DNA of 10,272 nt. Source: Nitrososphaera sp. (GTDB lineage: Archaea; Thermoproteota; Nitrososphaeria; Nitrososphaerales; Nitrososphaeraceae). The position numbers and the translations under genes were made by a program. The stretch is from contig JAJPDY010000023.1 in NCBI GenBank assembly GCA_023252395.1, positions 1 through 10,272 of the forward strand, written 5' to 3'. The first letter of the stretch is position 1, and each line of letters starts with the position of its first letter. Below, piece by piece: positions 309 through 10,272 of the stretch. Under the pieces are notes generated by a model that was given only the letters and a program-made list of their open reading frames with translations, ran no database searches and had not been told where the DNA came from.

Positions 309-1379
309 CTATTTCTTGTTCTTGAAGTACATCTTTTTCATCTCCTCGACCCACGCGTCCTTTTTCTCGTACATCCTCTTTGGTGCCCTCGGCTTGCAGA
401 CAGACATGGCGTAGGAGCAGAGAAGTGGGAAGTAGACAGACGAGTCGCCGTAGACAATGACGTTGCCCTTGTGGGAGGTCTTTATCTTGCCCCAGCTCTT
501 GCCCTCCTGCAGGGTAGCGCCAGACAGGCCGCCGGTGTCCGGCCGCGCGTCTGTCATCTGTATCAAATAGTCCTGCCCGCCCTCCTTTATCTTCAATATC
601 TGGTACAATGCCGGCCCGGTCTGCTGGAAAAAGTTCTTGGGGACTCCGCCGCCTAGCTCAAGGCCGCCAGAGCGCGCGCTCTTCCAAAGTATCGCGGCAG
701 ACTCGGCCACGTCGAGTATCACGTTTGGGAAAACGCCCTTGCCTTCGAGCAGCAGCGGCAGCATGTTGAGCCCGATTGACGAGTCGCCTATCGCAGGCAT
801 GTAGACAGGCACCTTGTGCTCGTATGCCTTTACCAAAAACGACTTGTCCGGGTACTTGGCGTTCTCTTTGGCGGCCTTGCCCAGCGCGTAGGCAATGTCC
901 GCAGTTGACGCGTTCTCGGGCACATTTTTAGCCCTCTTGATCTCTTTTTGCACAATCAGGTCCTGAGCCTGCAAGGTCCCCATCTCTTTGATGTAGACGT
1001 CGTATATCCTCACTATCTGCTTTGAATACAGCACGTCGTCGTCTACGTCAAAGTGCCCCTGCCTCACAGGCAGGTCGTAGGCAAAGTGCAGGTCATGGTA
1101 GACGTTGGCGCCAGTAGCCACTATCCAGTCGATAAAGCCGTTCTCTATCATTGCAGAGATTGTCCGGCCAAGGCCGATGGGTGTCATTGCGCCAGCAAGG
1201 GTCAGGCAAACTGTCGAGTTGGTGTCGATCATGTCCTGCATGATTTCTGCCGCTTCGGCCAGACGGCGCGCGTTGTAGCCGGTCGAGCCGTAAAACTTTA
1301 TCAGGTCTGCAACGGTCATGTTCGCAGAAACTGTCGGCGGGTCGATTTTTCTGCCGGTAAAGGAATGTCTGCTGTCCAC
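309..1379 (-). CDS. Deoxyhypusine synthase-like protein (bacterial-type DHS paralogue)
   Basis: This 356-residue protein belongs to the DHS fold family (NAD-dependent transfer of an aminobutyl group from spermidine or a related amine). The C-terminal signature SWGKIK (295-300) holds the Lys equivalent to the catalytic lysine of human DHS (Lys298 here), and LSGATLQEGKSWGK matches the family. It differs from the canonical enzyme. The NAD-site region reads ATGANVYHDLHFA (88-100) instead of TTxGxxEEDx, and GGGVPKNF (243-250) replaces GGGVxKHH, so the usual active-site His is missing. These are features of the bacterial 'DHS-like' clade, some members of which are thought to make polyamines such as homospermidine. 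The start is GTG at 1379, about 26 nt below a TATA-like element with no Shine-Dalgarno, so it is probably leaderless. An internal ATG at residue 21 (MTVADL) is an alternative. The gene lies 33 nt downstream of the methyltransferase on the same strand. A second, canonical DHS lies at 7464-8435, so this one is unlikely to be the main eIF5A/aIF5A modifier. Confidence 0.88.
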   Translation of the reverse strand: MDSRHSFTGRKIDPPTVSANMTVADLIKFYGSTGYNARRLAEAAEIMQDMIDTNSTVCLTLAGAMTPIGLGRTISAMIENGFIDWIVATGANVYHDLHFAYDLPVRQGHFDVDDDVLYSKQIVRIYDVYIKEMGTLQAQDLIVQKEIKRAKNVPENASTADIAYALGKAAKENAKYPDKSFLVKAYEHKVPVYMPAIGDSSIGLNMLPLLLEGKGVFPNVILDVAESAAILWKSARSGGLELGGGVPKNFFQQTGPALYQILKIKEGGQDYLIQMTDARPDTGGLSGATLQEGKSWGKIKTSHKGNVIVYGDSSVYFPLLCSYAMSVCKPRAPKRMYEKKDAWVEEMKKMYFKNKK

Positions 1380-2585: not shown

Positions 2586-3107
2586 TTAGAACGAAAGGAT
2601 CTTTTTCGCGGCGTTGACTTTTTCCAGCAGTTCTTTCAAAAATATGTCGGCAAACTGCTCAAAGGTCTGCACGCCGTACTTGGCTCTATACTCCTGCTTT
2701 CTTTTCCCGTATTCTTCGACAAGCCACCTAAAGTCAGCTTCCTTTAGCCTGACGATGTTGTTCTGCGCGGCCGCCTTTGATTCAAACACATTGAGCATAA
2801 AGATGGCAGCAAAATGGGTAAAGCTGTTTGCCTTGTACTTCCTGTCATAATCTTCCTTCAATTTTTCGTAATTTTCCTCAAGCCACACCTTGACGTCGGA
2901 CCGGATAGTCAGCGACGTGTAGCGGCCTGAAAAATCGACCTTCATGTTATGCATTTCAACGGAATAAAAGCCGCGCTTTACCTCGTTCATCATTATTATC
3001 AGCGCGCTTGGGAGAAACATGCCGGGATAGAACTCGTCGGTGTCCTTTTGGAGCCGGGTTAAAATCGCCGGCTTTAATCCGATGGTCGCGTACCCTTGGC
3101 TTGGCAC
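2586..3107 (-). CDS. Unknown protein with three ribbon-helix-helix-like repeats
   Basis: The protein has 173 residues, is soluble and is highly charged. I see three related units, each a short strand, a Trp/Leu-containing helix, a turn and a second helix: residues ~6-46 (YATIGLKPAILTRL... then SALIIMMNEV), ~63-109 (YTSLTIRSDVKVWLEENY... then FTHFAAIFMLNVFE) and ~118-163 (NIVRLKEADFRWLVEEY... then FEQFADIFLKELLE). Units 2 and 3 align closely (WLEENYEKLKEDY against WLVEEYGKRKQEY; SFTHFAAIF against TFEQFADIF). Unit 1 is looser but resembles a CopG-type ribbon-helix-helix. A DNA-binding or protein-scaffold role is possible but is inference. The start is GTG at 3107: an in-frame TAA lies 27 nt upstream, no Shine-Dalgarno is visible, and an AT-rich TATA-like element (CTAATTAAC on the - strand) lies ~26 nt before it. 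Confidence 0.65.
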   Translation of the reverse strand: MPSQGYATIGLKPAILTRLQKDTDEFYPGMFLPSALIIMMNEVKRGFYSVEMHNMKVDFSGRYTSLTIRSDVKVWLEENYEKLKEDYDRKYKANSFTHFAAIFMLNVFESKAAAQNNIVRLKEADFRWLVEEYGKRKQEYRAKYGVQTFEQFADIFLKELLEKVNAAKKILSF

Positions 3108-3149: not shown

Positions 3150-4685
3150 CTATCCAACCTTGCCCCCTGAAGGCGTGACATATCCCTTCAAGTCGTCGCC
3201 ATTGACAACGTCTTCTTCCGGCGGGACATAGTCGACTACTCCGTGCCTCTGCTCTCCAGGGTACTTCTTTTGCGTTGCAAGGGCGACTCCGATAAAGATT
3301 GCAAATGATATTGGTGGAGGTATCATTGTGTCAATGCCTGCCAGATCTACAGGAATGACAAAGAATAGCACCAGCCTGATTGCCGAGCCGATGATAAGCG
3401 ACGCGATTGCGGCAGGCATATTGGCCTTTTTCCAAAAGAGACCCAAGGTCAGCGGCGCCCATGCGCCGGCAAATACAATGTCAAAAGCCAAGACAAGGTA
3501 GATTCCGGGCTGTGGAAGTACATAGCCGAGGATAAACGCCGCTATCATCATTGGTATTGTAAATATACGCGTAGTCATAAGCAGCTTCTTGTCATTCATG
3601 CCGGGCCGTTTCATGATCCTCCTCATGATGTCCCTCTGTATGATGTTTCGAGACATGACACTTGAAATGGCAAGCAGGCCACCGTTTGCTGTTGACATTG
3701 AAGCTCCGAGCACGCCCATAAGGAGCGCCGCGCCTATTGCAAATGGCATGTGGTTTATGGCAAGATCAGGGTATGCCGTAAAAGGATCTGCAAGGCCCGG
3801 CCCTAGGAAGTATAGCGCGATAATTCCCATCATGCTTGTCGGGATGACTGTCAGCAATGTCAGGCCAGCACCCCAGAAAGCGCCCCTTGATGCGGTCTTG
3901 GGATCCTTTGCCGCAAACACCCTTTCCATAAAGTCAAGGGCGACAATGTCGCCAAGCCCAAGAGCCGCTATGCTTGCCCAGTTGACATATGCCCCATTTG
4001 CCGGGTCTGTCAGACCCGAAAGGTCGAGGTAGCCGGCTGGCGCGTTTCCAAGGATGACGCCAAAATCCACGCCTGCAAACCCTGCTGCAAAGAATATGAA
4101 TGCCGCCCAGAAAGCGCCTATCGCCAAGTAAATCTGGAAAATGTCAGTGTAGGCAGACGAGAATAGGCCGCCTGCAAAAGTGTACACCAAGACAATAATA
4201 GATCCGATCAGCATTGCCCAGAAAAAGTCAATCTGCAAAACTGTTGACAGGATAAATCCAGTTGCTGCAAAATTTCCTGCAACCAACACGATGAAGCTTA
4301 TCATCATCAGGACGCCCGAAATTCCTTCGGCTCCGTTTCCAAACCTGCGGTAATAAAAGTCCGGCAGAGTCAGCATCGCCATCTTGTTGAGCCTTTTTCC
4401 ATAGAACGCGCCTGTGAGAATAAGGCACACGGCAAGACCTATTGGAATTACCGCTCCGGCCCAGAATCCAAACTGGTAAACGAGCGATACGTTTCCAAGC
4501 GACGAATTGCCATCTATGGATTGCGCGGCGAGCATTGTTCCAACAAAAGCTAGAGGAAGGCTCTTACCGGCCACCATGTAGCGCTTGCTGCTTCTCTTGA
4601 CAAGTTTGACTGTTAATGTTCCAACTACAATCGACAGCCCCAGAAAAGCGATTACTGCAATCCCATATCCAGTAAGCTCTGCCAT
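3150..4685 (-). CDS. Sodium:solute symporter, SSS family (urea/polyamine-type candidate)
   Basis: The protein has 511 residues with about 13 hydrophobic segments, matching the LeuT-fold SSS family (Na+-driven uptake across the cytoplasmic membrane). Family marks include RYMVAGKSLPL (35-45) after the first span, GGLFSSAYTDIFQ (172-184) at the usual 'GG..av..TD..Q' site, and LGASMSTANGGLLAISS (326-342), which carries the Ser/Thr pair of the Na2 sodium site. FAGAWAPLTLGLFWKK (405-420) is also typical. The C-terminal ~40 residues are hydrophilic. The substrate is not readable. Ammonia-oxidising archaea often carry SSS transporters assigned to urea (DUR3-like), and DUR3 relatives also take polyamines; the urea/polyamine-related genes elsewhere in this window make those plausible. 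The start is ATG at 4685 with a TATA-like stretch ~26 nt upstream. A perfect palindrome 58 nt upstream may be an operator. Confidence 0.88.
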   Translation of the reverse strand: MAELTGYGIAVIAFLGLSIVVGTLTVKLVKRSSKRYMVAGKSLPLAFVGTMLAAQSIDGNSSLGNVSLVYQFGFWAGAVIPIGLAVCLILTGAFYGKRLNKMAMLTLPDFYYRRFGNGAEGISGVLMMISFIVLVAGNFAATGFILSTVLQIDFFWAMLIGSIIVLVYTFAGGLFSSAYTDIFQIYLAIGAFWAAFIFFAAGFAGVDFGVILGNAPAGYLDLSGLTDPANGAYVNWASIAALGLGDIVALDFMERVFAAKDPKTASRGAFWGAGLTLLTVIPTSMMGIIALYFLGPGLADPFTAYPDLAINHMPFAIGAALLMGVLGASMSTANGGLLAISSVMSRNIIQRDIMRRIMKRPGMNDKKLLMTTRIFTIPMMIAAFILGYVLPQPGIYLVLAFDIVFAGAWAPLTLGLFWKKANMPAAIASLIIGSAIRLVLFFVIPVDLAGIDTMIPPPISFAIFIGVALATQKKYPGEQRHGVVDYVPPEEDVVNGDDLKGYVTPSGGKVG

Positions 4686-5985: not shown

Positions 5986-7422
5986 TTGGAAGTTGCCGCG
6001 CGGCCAAGAGCTGCAAAAAAAATTGCGATTGGCGTTGCCATAATTGCTGCTTTTGCAGCGCTGATATTCGCGGTGCCGCCGGCGCTCGGTAAGAACATCC
6101 ACCCCATGATCCTAGTCTCGGCGTTCATACTAGCCTCCATCTACGTGGCGCTCTCGTTTGAATTTCTCCACAGAAGCACAATTGCGCTCGCAGGCGCAAT
6201 ATCGATAATCATAGCGGCCCTTGCCTTTGGAAGCATCCAAGCCGAGGAGAGCTTTGAGTTCATCGTCGGTGCCATCGACTACAACACAATAGGGCTCTTG
6301 CTCGGCATGATGATAATAGTCGCCATACTTGCCGAGTCTGGAGTATTTCAGTGGGTCGGGATCAAGGCGAGCAAGGCAAGCAAGGGCAACCTGTGGAAGC
6401 TGATGGTCATCCTGTGCACGTTCACCGCGGTGACTTCGATGTTCATCGACAACGTCACGACCATCCTGCTGATGGTCCCAGTCACGGTAGCAGTTTTCAG
6501 GATCTTTAGGGTGTCGCCGATGCCCTTTATCCTTGCCCAAGCGCTTGCGTCAAACGTAGGTGGTGCTGCGACTCTCATAGGCGACCCTCCAAACATATTG
6601 ATTGGATCGGCCGCAGGCATTGACTTTAACGCGTTCATTATCCACCTAGGCCCGACTATCGCAATTTCGTTTGCCGCGTCGCTATTCTTGCTGAAATTCA
6701 TGTTCAGAAAAGATCTGAAGGCACAGGTCCAGAATCTGGAGGAGTTGATGAAAGAAGATGAAAGCTCGTACCTGAAAGACAAAGGCGTCTTGAAAAAATC
6801 GCTGGCAGTACTTCTTGGAGTTGTCGCGCTGTTTGTTGTGCATGGGTCGCTGCACATCGAGCCGTCAGTCATTGCCCTTGGAGGCGCGGGCGTGCTGCTT
6901 GCAATCACCAAGGCAAGCCCAGAAAAGGTGTTCCGCGAAGTGGACTGGCCGACCCTGATATTTTTCACAGGGCTTTTCATCATTGTCGGGGTTGCCGAAC
7001 ACGCGGGGATGATAGAAGTGTTGTCAAAGGCGGCACTTGGCGCGACTGGAGGCAACCCGTGGCTTGCGTTTGCGATGATAATATGGATGTCCGCCATTGC
7101 CAGCGCGTTCGTTGACAACATCCCGTTCACCGCCACCATGATACCGTTAGTGCACACTCTCAATGAAAGCGCGGGAATATCGGGTGCGTTTGGCGACCTC
7201 CACATCAGCCCGCTTTGGTGGGCCCTATCGCTTGGAGCCAACTTGGGCGGCAACGGCACGCTCATCGGCTCAAGCGCCGGCATCGTGGCAGCCGGCATAA
7301 GCGAAAAGCACGGACACCCGATAAGCTTCATCAGGTGGCTCAGGGTAGGCTTTCCATTCATGATAATTACAGTTGCGATAGGCACGATTATCCTTGCAAT
7401 AGACGTGTTTCTCCGGGTGTAA
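5986..7422 (+). CDS. ArsB/NhaD/SLC13-type ion permease
   Basis: This 478-residue integral membrane protein has roughly 12 spans and belongs to the ion transporter superfamily (ArsB, NhaD, P protein, SLC13). It shows the two inverted half-repeats of that fold. Half one has MFIDNVTTILLMVP (152-165) followed by ASNVGGAATLIGDPPNI (188-204). Half two has AFVDNIPFTATMIPLV (374-389) followed by GANLGGNGTLIGSSAGI (417-433). The GG.(A/G)TLIG stretches are the helix-hairpin substrate and sodium sites. A charged cytoplasmic loop around 240-268 joins the halves. The substrate could be arsenite, sodium/proton, a carboxylate or another anion; the sequence does not decide. The start is TTG at 5986: an in-frame TAG sits at 5980-5982, and a TATA box lies ~30 nt upstream. 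No arsenic regulator or ArsA is nearby. It lies 41 nt upstream of DHS, which has its own TATA-like sequence. Confidence 0.85.
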   Translation: MEVAARPRAAKKIAIGVAIIAAFAALIFAVPPALGKNIHPMILVSAFILASIYVALSFEFLHRSTIALAGAISIIIAALAFGSIQAEESFEFIVGAIDYNTIGLLLGMMIIVAILAESGVFQWVGIKASKASKGNLWKLMVILCTFTAVTSMFIDNVTTILLMVPVTVAVFRIFRVSPMPFILAQALASNVGGAATLIGDPPNILIGSAAGIDFNAFIIHLGPTIAISFAASLFLLKFMFRKDLKAQVQNLEELMKEDESSYLKDKGVLKKSLAVLLGVVALFVVHGSLHIEPSVIALGGAGVLLAITKASPEKVFREVDWPTLIFFTGLFIIVGVAEHAGMIEVLSKAALGATGGNPWLAFAMIIWMSAIASAFVDNIPFTATMIPLVHTLNESAGISGAFGDLHISPLWWALSLGANLGGNGTLIGSSAGIVAAGISEKHGHPISFIRWLRVGFPFMIITVAIGTIILAIDVFLRV

Positions 7423-7463: not shown

Positions 7464-8435
7464 ATGGCCGGCAGGACAAAAAAGCAAAAGGGCGGCGACC
7501 TTTTGCGCGACGCGGTGAAAGATTATGCCATAAACGATGACGATGATGTCCAATCAATTTTCTCAAACATGGCAAACTCGGGCGGCTTTGAGTCGCGGAA
7601 CTTGGCCGACGGGGTAGACATACTGCGCAGGATGATTGACGAGAAGAACTGCACAAAGTTCCTGTCATTTGTCGGGGCGCTGATGTCGACAGGAGCAAGG
7701 GGCATCGTGCGCGACATGGTAAAGAACAAGATGTGCGACGTCATCATCACCACCTGCGGCGCGCTAGACCACGACATCGCAAGGTCGTACGACAAGTACT
7801 ACGCCGGCGATTTCCGCATGGACGACAGCATGCTACTGGGCAAGAACATCCACAGGCTCGGCAATGTGCTTGTTCCGATGGACAACTACGGCCCGCTCAT
7901 TGAAGAAAAGGTGCAGGCTTGTCTGAAGGATATGTACAAGGAAGGCAAGCGCCAGATAGCAACTTACGAACTGACCGATTACATTGGAAGCACGCTTGAC
8001 AAGTCGTCGTTTCTATACTGGGCCCACAAGAACAAGATTCCTGTCATTGTCCCCGGAATCGTGGACGGTGCAGTCGGGAGCCAGGTGTGGTTCTTTTACC
8101 AGCAGCACAAGGATTTCAAGATAGACATCTTGAAGGACGAGAGCAGGTTGTCAGATATCGTTTTTGAAGCGAAAAAATCCGGCGCATTCATGATAGGAGG
8201 AGGCATTTCAAAGCACCACACCCTCTGGTGGAACCAGTTCAGGGGTGGGATGGACTACGCAGTATACATCACCACTGCCCCTGAGTGGGACGGCAGCCTG
8301 AGTGGGGCGCTGGTCGCAGAAGCGATATCGTGGGGCAAGGTGACTACAAAGGCGCGACAGACCACCATCCACGGCGAAGCTACTACCCTCTTGCCCTTCA
8401 TTTACGCAGCGCTCGCAAAGGCAAGAAAAACGTAG
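7464..8435 (+). CDS. dys: Deoxyhypusine synthase (canonical archaeal/eukaryotic type)
   Basis: The protein has 323 residues. It performs the NAD-dependent first step of hypusine formation on translation factor aIF5A in the cytoplasm, transferring an aminobutyl group to a lysine. It tracks human DHS closely: TTCGALDHDIARSY (96-109, NAD region), GNVLVPMDNY (133-142), PVIVPGIVDGAVGSQ (193-207), GGGISKHH (245-252) with the active-site His, MDYAVYITTAPEWDGSLSGA (263-282), and AISWGKV (287-293) with the catalytic lysine (Lys292). All key residues seen in the family are present. I chose the start at 7464 from the TATA spacing; the frame stays open upstream, with an in-frame ATG at 7452. Next on the same strand is the ureohydrolase, after a 114-base spacer. 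In haloarchaea the DHS pathway has been shown to use agmatine followed by a ureohydrolase, which makes this neighbour suggestive. A second, divergent DHS paralogue lies at 309-1379. Confidence 0.92.
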   Translation: MAGRTKKQKGGDLLRDAVKDYAINDDDDVQSIFSNMANSGGFESRNLADGVDILRRMIDEKNCTKFLSFVGALMSTGARGIVRDMVKNKMCDVIITTCGALDHDIARSYDKYYAGDFRMDDSMLLGKNIHRLGNVLVPMDNYGPLIEEKVQACLKDMYKEGKRQIATYELTDYIGSTLDKSSFLYWAHKNKIPVIVPGIVDGAVGSQVWFFYQQHKDFKIDILKDESRLSDIVFEAKKSGAFMIGGGISKHHTLWWNQFRGGMDYAVYITTAPEWDGSLSGALVAEAISWGKVTTKARQTTIHGEATTLLPFIYAALAKARKT

Positions 8436-8549: not shown

Positions 8550-9665
8550 ATGGGGATGGAATTTTATGGTGACTCTTACAAGGGAAACGACGAGCCTATC
8601 TTTGTTGGCATACCGACATTTTTGAAGCTGCCATGGCTGCGGAGCCAAGCGGAGCTGAAAAAAGTAAAGCCGGATGTCGCAATAATAGGCGAGCCATTTG
8701 ACTTTGGAACTACAATACGCCCCGGCGCAAGGTACGGCCCAAGGGCTATCCGCGCGGCTTCAACGGTGCCCTCTCCGCCGTACGAGCACTTTAACATAGA
8801 GACTGGCGTCGACCCATTTGGAGTGTTTCGCACAGTCGACTATGGCGATGTCAACATATCTCCCGGCGACGTCGTGGAATCGCACAGGAGGATGACTGAC
8901 AAGGTCAAAGAGGTACTTGACATTGACGGCATCCCCGTAATGCTAGGAGGCGATCACTCTATCACGTTTGCAAACGTCAGGGCATTTGCCAAAAAGCACA
9001 AGAATATCGGCATGATCCATATTGACACGCATGCAGACTGCGCGCCGCAGGGCCTCTGCGGCTTCAAGTACGACCATGGCGCCCACATCCGCAGGATAAT
9101 GGAGCTTGGCTGCCTAAAGGGCAAGAACTACACGCTCATCGGCCCGCGCGGCTACTGGCCGGGCCCAGACCTGTACAAGTGGATGGCAGACCAGGACTTC
9201 CAGTGGTTCACCATGCTTGACGTGGAAGAGCTGGGAATTGACCAGATTGCAAAAGAAGCGGCAGACAGGGCAAACGACAACGTTGATGGCGTCTACATCA
9301 GCTGGGACATTGACACTTTTGATCCGGCTTATGCGCCGGGAACGGGCGAGCCGGAGCCAAACGGCCTGACTTCAAGGGAGGGCATGAGGCTCATGCGGTT
9401 GCTGTCGACCTCATTTGATCCGGACAAGTTCGCGTTTGACCTTGTAGAGGTTGCGCCAAACTATGACGTAAGCGACGTCAATTCGTACAACGGCGGCATA
9501 ACGTCGGGCCTTGCAAACAGGCTGATAGTCGAGCTCTTGGCAGGGCTTTCGCTCACAAAGAAGGGCCAGATGGAAGGCAAGCCAGTGAGGCCAAGGCAGT
9601 ACCGCGGCAAAGGTCACACGTACAGCTTTGGCGGGCCAAAAGCAAAGGTGCCAAGGCGCGGATGA
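8550..9665 (+). CDS. Ureohydrolase of the arginase/agmatinase superfamily
   Basis: This 371-residue cytoplasmic hydrolase should release urea (or ammonia plus urea) from a guanidino compound. All six bimetal ligands are present: GGDHS (His136), DTHAD (Asp159, His161, Asp163) and SWDIDTFDP (Asp253, Asp255). The N-terminal RPGARYGPRAIR (57-68) and YDHG (174-177) also match agmatinase-type enzymes. Odd points: DTHAD instead of the common DAHxD; GTGEPEPNG (264-272) where most have GTGTPEPGG; an IGPRGYWPGP loop (197-206); an extended N-terminus of ~40 residues; and a basic ~30-residue C-terminal tail. Substrate could be agmatine (or an agmatine-modified aIF5A intermediate, given DHS next door), guanidine, or another guanidino compound. 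Guanidine hydrolases are nickel-dependent members of this superfamily, which matters because a nickel permease follows. The stop overlaps the next start as ATGA, so translation is probably coupled. Confidence 0.88.
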   Translation: MGMEFYGDSYKGNDEPIFVGIPTFLKLPWLRSQAELKKVKPDVAIIGEPFDFGTTIRPGARYGPRAIRAASTVPSPPYEHFNIETGVDPFGVFRTVDYGDVNISPGDVVESHRRMTDKVKEVLDIDGIPVMLGGDHSITFANVRAFAKKHKNIGMIHIDTHADCAPQGLCGFKYDHGAHIRRIMELGCLKGKNYTLIGPRGYWPGPDLYKWMADQDFQWFTMLDVEELGIDQIAKEAADRANDNVDGVYISWDIDTFDPAYAPGTGEPEPNGLTSREGMRLMRLLSTSFDPDKFAFDLVEVAPNYDVSDVNSYNGGITSGLANRLIVELLAGLSLTKKGQMEGKPVRPRQYRGKGHTYSFGGPKAKVPRRG

Positions 9666-9871
9666 TCCAGATAAAGGCGACTGTAAGGGGCGAGCCAGAT
9701 GTTACGCCCTTTACCAAGATCTTTGACTATGGCAGCTCTGACGAAGAGATTTTTTTCAGCTCGTCTGCCATGATTAAAGAAAAGCTCCAGCGCGGCATGA
9801 AGATAAATGCAAACGAAGCGCTGATAATATACTGCGACTACGCGGTAGAGGCTATACGCGCAGGCGTGTAG
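9662..9871 (+). CDS. Urease gamma-subunit (UreA)-like protein, N-terminal part ending at in-frame TAG
   Basis: The 69 residues start at an ATG overlapping the ureohydrolase stop by four bases (ATGA). Residues ~28-68 resemble UreA: a helix (EEIFFSSSAMIKEKLQRG), then the RGxKLNxPEA-like GMKINANEAL (45-54), then a helix ending in EAIRAG (63-68), where UreA has 'LEGARDG'. The first ~27 residues are not UreA-like. The frame stops at TAG (9869-9871), right where UreA would continue, and the same frame past the TAG encodes the rest of the UreA pattern. If only this part is made, it is a truncated UreA-like protein. Urease gamma is a small structural subunit that helps build the nickel enzyme; here no urease alpha or beta is visible. 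Homology is judged by eye and is moderately secure. Confidence 0.65.
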   Translation: MIQIKATVRGEPDVTPFTKIFDYGSSDEEIFFSSSAMIKEKLQRGMKINANEALIIYCDYAVEAIRAGV

Positions 9872-10045
9872 GACAGTGGCATACAAGAAGGCGCTTCAAA
9901 AATTCTGTCAGCCAATATGGTGATGATAGGCGTGCCAGAAACCCTGCAAAATATCACATTTGAAGCAAGGATAGACACCATCCCTGCAAGAAAGATTATA
10001 ATCAAAGAGCCGATGCAGACAAGCGGCTACATGATGGCAGGCTGA
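9872..10045 (+). pseudogene. Remainder of the UreA-like gene after the in-frame TAG
   Basis: In the same frame as 9662-9871, after the TAG, there are 57 more codons to TGA at 10043-10045. They read DSGIQEGASKILSANMVMIG, then VPETLQNITFEARID and IIIKEP. MIGVPE matches the UreA hallmark 'VMxGVPE', ITFEARID matches 'IQVEATFPD', and the IIIKEP end corresponds to UreA's 'VTVHNPI'. Counting both halves, the protein would be 126 residues with one stop inside, against about 100 for UreA. The best independent start is ATG at 9917, giving a 42-residue peptide with no clear Shine-Dalgarno. Possible explanations are a recent nonsense mutation, a base error, stop read-through, or a split gene. Confidence 0.6.
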
Positions 10046-10057
10046 GGTGGCAAAAAA

Positions 10058-10272
10058 TTGATAGCAGAATCGTTCAACCACTTGATAGAGATGGTTTTTG
10101 CGCCGGTTGAAGGCAACATCAGTGCCACAACTCCGGCAGGACTTTTGCTCCTCGGGCTAGTCATCGGTCTTCGCCATTCGATGGAAGCTGACCATGTTGC
10201 AGCAGTATCTACCATAGTCGCAGGCAGCAACAAGAGCAAGTTCCGCGCGCCGATGCTTGGCGCACTGTGGGG
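10058..10272 (+). CDS. Nickel permease, UreH/NiCoT-type, 3'-truncated by window edge
   Basis: The start is TTG at 10058, 12 bases after the UreA-like TGA, with a GAGGTGG Shine-Dalgarno-like stretch at 10045-10051 (an in-frame ATG at 10091 is the alternative). The visible 71 residues hold a hydrophobic span (AGLLLLGLVIGL) leading into RHSMEADHVAAV, the HX4DH nickel-binding motif of NiCoT/HoxN and UreH transporters. The sequence around STIVAGSNKSKFRAPMLGAL resembles UreH, the urease-linked nickel permease, more than HoxN. It should import nickel across the cytoplasmic membrane. It is probably co-transcribed with the ureohydrolase and the UreA-like frame, which suggests that the operon supplies or uses a nickel enzyme. 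Cobalt transport cannot be excluded. Confidence 0.8.
   Translation, partial: MIAESFNHLIEMVFAPVEGNISATTPAGLLLLGLVIGLRHSMEADHVAAVSTIVAGSNKSKFRAPMLGALW

Follow-up and report, generated by a model that had tools for sequence, protein, structure and literature searches.

The 10,272-base window analyzed here is an entire contig (C143) of a Nitrososphaera sp. metagenome-assembled genome (MAG; 66.7% complete), and its 3′ end carries a ureohydrolase gene (UOH), a urease-gamma-like gene (UreAX), and the beginning of a permease gene. UOH is a complete open reading frame (ORF) of the arginase superfamily, encoding 371 amino acids at positions 8550 to 9665 of the forward strand, which matches PF00491 (266.8 bits; cut-off, 22) and whose relatives are those of ammonia-oxidizing archaea (AOA). 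UreAX, of about 127 codons (9662 to 10045, forward strand), begins with an ATG at 9662 and overlaps the end of UOH by ATGA, as an earlier sequence-only reading of this DNA had described; its codon 70 is an in-frame TAG (9869 to 9871, forward strand). Twelve bases beyond the last stop codon of the UreAX frame, an ORF with a TTG start (10058 to 10272, forward strand) represents the 5′ fragment of a NicO/UreH-like permease gene, ended by the contig end. A 511-amino-acid sodium:solute symporter, recognized by its Pfam match, is encoded on the reverse strand at 3150 to 4685. With slightly better than even confidence, we propose that these genes belong to a salvage module of importer, ureohydrolase, and urease that feeds ammonia oxidation, in which UreAX would be a dedicated partner of UOH and nickel the likely metal. 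The observed basis of this proposal is the gene order, its conservation, the co-occurrence of the genes, the kept catalytic residues, and the separation of UOH from the agmatinase-like protein of AOA. The TAG, the symporter, the distinct agmatinase-like gene, and a Glu residue of UOH that replaces a guanidinase Trp were absent from the sequence-only reading.

The UreA-like nature of the second frame is confirmed by a match to the urease gamma family PF00547 at 9755 to 9973 (40.4 bits; cut-off, 23.9), and what the sequence-only reading missed is that the gene is broken. As assembled, it stops after 69 amino acids, although beyond the TAG the frame stays open to 10045 and encodes conserved motifs. 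The relatives listed carry no such break and align across the whole length of the window frame, and a UreAX profile of 26 rows (A1), from which the window sequence was left out, matches positions 9662 to 10039 with an E value of 4.6e-49. The TAG may be a sequencing error or a fresh lesion. Its use as a coded residue was considered and is unsupported, since the deoxyhypusine synthase gene of the window terminates in TAG. The urease gamma fold spans residues 21 to 115 of UreAX and keeps the gamma core motif, the N-terminal 20 residues fall outside the urease gamma matches, and most UreAX proteins carry about 25 extra N-terminal residues compared with UreA. The intact relatives in L045 and L035 match PF00547 with 46.9 and 72.5 bits, respectively. 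UreAX stays under the two urease-gamma NCBIfam equivalog cut-offs of 123 and 82.3, scoring 47.4 and 46.4 in L044 and 46.0 and 40.3 in L045. UreAX shares fold, Pfam family, and core residues with UreA but differs from it in the extension that most members have, in its weak scores, and in adjoining UOH, and a true ureA exists besides. The L035 protein, which is without this extension, branches in the tree at a point between UreA and the remaining UreAX proteins (support of 99/98 and 98/98, with a short alignment and long branches), which suggests that UreAX may have arisen by duplication of ureA.

The conservation of the UOH-UreAX pair was surveyed in 300 genomes of the class Nitrososphaeria. 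PF00547 matches are present in 114 genomes and comprise true UreA and a diverged paralogue, mostly in frames of 130 to 145 amino acids; true UreA and UreAX occur together in many genomes. Thirty-nine loci around listed paralogues were taken (L035 to L073; L074, an extra urease region, was set aside), and UOH is listed in 38 of them and lies just upstream in the 39th (L071). With the UreAX profile, 61 loci outscore every true UreA among the matches listed, and 60 of these immediately follow UOH in the same orientation. In the remaining one, from G112, the UOH and UreAX ORFs overlap by one base and the profile match begins late. The G181 gene was added by its place beside UOH, which gives 61 of 62 in the script count. 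Every genome with these loci has UOH; weaker second matches, outside the row set used, occur in four UOH-lacking genomes (G048, G061, G108, and G172), plus one in G076. Counted from UOH, UreAX lies directly 3′ in 68 of the 75 loci for which 450 or more nucleotides downstream are available, out of 80 named loci, so the adjacency is not due to chance. L135 was counted as UreAX bearing on a weak match (3e-7) adjoining masked bases. The conserved neighborhood that the sequence-only reading had proposed to look for in Nitrososphaeria therefore exists, and its idea of a UreA-like protein linked to a ureohydrolase is upheld as a dedicated gene pair by conservation. The seven loci without UreAX are L102 and L106 (Nitrososphaeraceae), L107 (Nitrosocosmicus), L139, L140, L145, and L149, and in the last four a permease gene directly follows UOH (three by hidden Markov model [HMM] and L149 by eye). 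Among the 31 long named loci, which extend 6 kb to either side, the genes found near UOH are those for the symporter (30 loci), UreAX (27), a thermosome protein (25), a same-strand permease (21), and UreC (18). No carbon-handling gene was found to recur beside UOH in the locus neighborhoods examined. One MAG, G232, holds two UOH-UreAX loci (contigs C149 and C105).

The most compact arrangement is that of L035, in a genome of another family (G112), where genes for UOH, UreAX, permease, UreA, UreB, UreC, UreE, UreF, a UreG-type protein, and UreD lie on one strand within 7.7 kb, with the symporter gene nearby on the opposite strand. Each of the ten has its own Pfam match (CobW/HypB/UreG for the UreG-type protein), with the permease barely above the NicO cut-off. 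This contiguous locus has its own ureA besides UreAX, and a urease operon that by itself explains the UreA-like and UreH-like genes, which the sequence-only reading had named as its refuting case, was not seen. This outcome comes from relatives, since the window's own contig ends at 10272. The UOH of L035 also has a His-rich C-terminal tail, a common nickel-handling feature. Outside AOA, a close counterpart is the haloarchaeal "agmatinase family protein," a sister group with 50 to 53% identity among the named rows, the same Glu, and symporter or urease genes nearby; no UreA-like gene is listed beside it in the records opened. In the four haloarchaeal records opened, a symporter gene is at most 4 kb from UOH in three (Halalkalicoccus and two Haloarcula), the Natronorubrum record contains a urease cluster with a standard ureA inside it, and a PhoU-like or AbrB-type gene is directly upstream of UOH in all four. 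The two haloarchaeal symporters compared are about 37 to 40% identical to the AOA ones (best rows).

Urease and the symporter both co-occur with UOH. UreC with a strong score is present in 65 of 73 UOH genomes versus 41 of 227 others (P = 1.7e-28, relatedness uncorrected). In two of the eight exceptions, G173 and G202, UreC is cut by a contig end, which brings urease to 67 of 73, and the other six are incomplete assemblies (66.7 to 92%). G232 and G277 (92% complete) show no UreC, UreD, or UreF. A candidate genus (g8) with UOH and UreAX but without urease was withdrawn, as G202 has UreD, UreF, and the contig-end-cut UreC. The symporters were compared in 40 genomes chosen by UOH and urease status, comprising 17 of the 73 UOH genomes and 23 others, of which 16 have urease and 7 lack it. 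The 511-amino-acid symporter (E ≤ 1e-40) occurs in 17/17 genomes with UOH and 0/23 without it, and UOH and this symporter go together in each of the six genera that hold both kinds of genome. A long, DUR3-like symporter (773 amino acids) is found in 10 of the 17 UOH genomes (two in pieces), in 14 of the 16 urease-only genomes, and in none of the 7 urease-lacking genomes. The occurrence of the short symporter therefore parallels that of UOH, and the occurrence of the long one parallels that of urease; the short one is probably the importer of the UOH substrate. SSS-class symporters are taken as urea transporters in AOA in passages of three studies (PMC11131427, PMC10579303, and PMC12686405). 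This tight co-occurrence of UOH with urease and a private transporter supports the route from a guanidino compound through urea to ammonia that the sequence-only reading had raised. In the ureC region of L044, L042, and L051, Rfam 5′ ureB small RNA matches lie antisense to the urease gene (62.7 to 69.8 bits; cut-off, 40), and these archaeal matches perhaps reflect only coding conservation.

UOH orthologues occur in 73 of the 300 genomes, with 79 to 99% identity to the window protein, and the remaining arginase-family proteins are 28 to 39% identical to it among the matches listed. Some arginase-family match at an E value of 1e-20 is present in 257 of 300 genomes, and a weaker additional match (E ≤ 1e-20) is present in 50 of the 73 UOH genomes, including the window's own. 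By sequence, UOH thus forms a family of its own, distinct from the agmatinase-like protein common in AOA, and three of the weaker AOA proteins (L160 to L162) are far from UOH in the tree and without its Thr and Glu described below. The columns H136, D159, H161, D163, D253, and D255, which we take by analogy with arginase to be metal ligands, and the presumably catalytic H176 and E300 are invariant in 25 aligned sequences and common to solved ureohydrolases, including the guanidinase GdmH. Thr97 and Trp305 are treated as guanidinase marker positions in passages of PMC11410670. In the alignment to 7esr, the first corresponds to T55 of the window UOH and is Thr also in the AOA and haloarchaeal tree rows. 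The second is Glu (E267) and is likewise Glu in these rows, except for Gln in 1 of 25 AOA rows; Glu is also found in P0015, P0027, P0030, P0032, P0036, and P0042, and Thr is found in the bacterial-type rows P0086, P0095, P0112, and P0113 and in Rubrobacter. The AOA and haloarchaeal UOH proteins form one clade (100/99), which joins bacterial proteins (96/94) and not GdmH; the outer order of the tree is unsure because several reference rows have long branches. By the Glu and its place in the tree, UOH is not a canonical guanidinase, although it keeps the Thr. The structure model of UOH is poor (predicted local distance difference test [pLDDT] score, 53.3). In G144, a close relative of the window, UOH has an in-frame TAG at codon 227 (L044), where the window has GAG; this TAG may be a sequencing error or a lesion.

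Among known systems, GdmH (Synechocystis 7esr and Nitrospira inopinata 9fek) shares with UOH the ureohydrolase family, the metal ligands, and the Thr at the Thr97 position, and the idea that a nitrifier uses it parallels our proposal. UOH differs from it by the Glu, the separate branch, and the importer, which is a symporter for UOH and of the APC or ABC type for GdmH systems (PMC11410670). Guanidinobutyrase (3nio), guanidinopropionase (3nip), and proclavaminate amidinohydrolase (1gq6) are, with GdmH, the solved structures nearest to UOH by sequence, but they have Thr at the 305 position and, by name, carbon-chain substrates. We know of no UreAX counterpart for GdmH and of no urease-gamma partner for the other three. 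Metformin hydrolase MefH is likewise a ureohydrolase, dependent on nickel and on a second protein, but its partner is a decayed ureohydrolase rather than a urease-gamma paralogue, and its operon has HypA and HypB genes (PMC11399263). A literature search limited to open-licence papers found no publication that links a ureohydrolase with a paralogue of urease gamma.

In the proposed module, the short symporter would import an external guanidino compound, UOH would hydrolyze it to urea and an amine or ammonia, and urease would convert the urea to ammonia, the fuel for ammonia oxidation. UreAX, as a duplicated and diverged urease gamma, may serve UOH in assembly, stability, or docking, and the permease may supply nickel to urease and probably also to UOH. 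The substrate that we tentatively favor is free guanidine, since a genome survey (PMC10753782) reports that nitrifiers lack a complete pathway of putrescine catabolism and since no carbon-handling gene was seen to recur beside UOH; other small guanidino compounds are possible. A bolder version, in which AOA would gain energy from guanidine or a small guanidino compound with their own symporter, a nickel ureohydrolase, and a repurposed urease gamma, possibly with docking on urease for direct transfer of urea, is a tentative idea that we regard as rather improbable.

The metal is where an alternative survives best. The window permease ORF contains HSMEADH, an instance of the HX4DH motif that we assume to mark NicO/UreH nickel permeases, so the motif and the 12-base spacing named by the sequence-only reading stand; the family assignment does not follow from the fragment, which has no Pfam or NCBIfam match at 0.001, and NicO (PF03824) has no match in the window's genome. 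The identity was read from intact relatives, of which L041 (28.4) and L035 (27.9) score just above the PF03824 cut-off of 27.7 and L044 (18.4) below it. Given these weak scores, permease co-occurrence statistics were not drawn from PF03824. A same-strand permease follows UOH in 34 of 71 loci and none was found in 37. Nickel is the probable metal of UOH, as judged from the permease neighbor, the His-rich tail in L035, and the linkage to urease. Most ureohydrolases use manganese, however, and an appreciable though less than even chance is left that UOH does too and that the permease serves urease, which alone would need nickel; the 37 loci without a same-strand permease fit this. The permeases directly after UOH in four of the seven loci that lack UreAX and the location of the His-rich tail on UOH itself argue for nickel.

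It is doubtful that UreAX instead acts in urease, as an alternative gamma subunit or as a tether docking UOH on urease for urea handover. The preserved gamma fold and core motif, the presence of urease in nearly all UOH genomes, and the shared strand of UreAX and urease genes in L035 agree with such a role, but UreAX adjoins UOH, has urease genes nearby in only part of the loci (ureC in 18 of the 31 long ones), and is usually accompanied by a true ureA. The tether form overlaps our proposal, since tethering would itself be a way of partnering UOH.

The least likely alternative makes UOH a plain agmatinase that forms putrescine for polyamines from arginine-derived agmatine, with urease recovering the urea. 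The proteins are named agmatinase, and some guanidinobutyrase, in databases, agmatinase is the nearest NCBIfam name, and a deoxyhypusine synthase gene sits immediately upstream of UOH in the window. The published interpretations, in the passages concerned, are of this kind: agmatinase is placed in polyamine synthesis (PMC8573960), a cluster of an SSS gene with SpeB/agmatinase in NS-delta is interpreted as converting agmatine to putrescine and urea (PMC11131427), and most AOA are credited with 2 to 3 speB copies (PMC10753782), counts that may mix two enzymes because UOH and the agmatinase-like protein are separate families. We consider this alternative unlikely, as UOH scores below both agmatinase cut-offs (NF002564, 200.6 of 302; TIGR01230, 154.2 of 174.3), a further arginase-family match exists in 50 of the 73 UOH genomes, UOH is confined to 73 of the 300 genomes and co-occurs with urease and with a private importer that biosynthesis from internal arginine would not need, and only 12 of the 31 long loci have a deoxyhypusine-synthase-family gene close to UOH.

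Several points weigh against the salvage module. Its support is genomic, UreAX is broken in the window, and UreAX is not essential to every UOH, because it is absent from 7 of 75 loci and no UreA-like gene was seen beside UOH in the four haloarchaeal records, whose plasmid gene tables are incomplete. Nickel is not secured, because the permease follows in fewer than half of the loci and matches NicO weakly. Block gain or loss of neighboring genes can inflate co-occurrence, and the counts are uncorrected for relatedness. UOH fails two guanidinase marks, with Glu for Trp305 and a branch separate from GdmH, and no guanidine riboswitch was found at gathering score in 7 sources. In 23 of 73 UOH genomes (18/30 in family f1, to which the window's genome belongs, and 5/43 elsewhere), there is no additional arginase-family match at E ≤ 1e-20, and UOH could be the sole agmatinase-like enzyme there; an f1 agmatinase is possibly hidden by this limit, because f1 genomes without UOH have an agmatinase-like match of only about 1e-21 or nothing. 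In the relevant passages, Palatinszky et al. report guanidine genes in ammonia-oxidizing bacteria and comammox but in no AOA (PMC11410670), and a floodplain study describes nitrifier MAGs without guanidine genes (PMC12625717).

The window contains two deoxyhypusine-synthase-family genes (309 to 1379, reverse strand, and 7485 to 8435, forward strand; NCBIfam), one above the cut-off of NF001980 (homospermidine biosynthesis protein) and the other above that of NF002294 (deoxyhypusine synthase). Two short families with no Pfam match above cut-off recur near UOH: that of window positions 2586 to 3107 (reverse strand, 173 amino acids) in 28 of 31 long loci and that of L054 positions 9152 to 9406 (reverse strand, 84 amino acids) in 29 of 31. 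A CitMHS/ArsB-type transporter gene (5986 to 7422, forward strand) belongs to a cluster (cluster 24) found in 6 sources, window included. In the 25 long loci counted above, UOH and the thermosome (Cpn60/TCP-1) gene are no more than about 9 kb apart, for example, with the latter at 2521 to 4209 of L041, and Haloarcula has a distant thermosome gene near UOH.

AOA are among the most abundant nitrifiers. The list of their known substrates is short, and a route of importer, ureohydrolase, and urease, if true, would add a source of nitrogen and energy that would have been hidden under the name agmatinase. The UOH-linked symporter is a protein distinct from the DUR3-like long one, and the two should not be grouped together untested. 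If UreAX does partner UOH, it would, to our knowledge, be a novel instance of a urease subunit reused as a partner by another enzyme superfamily.
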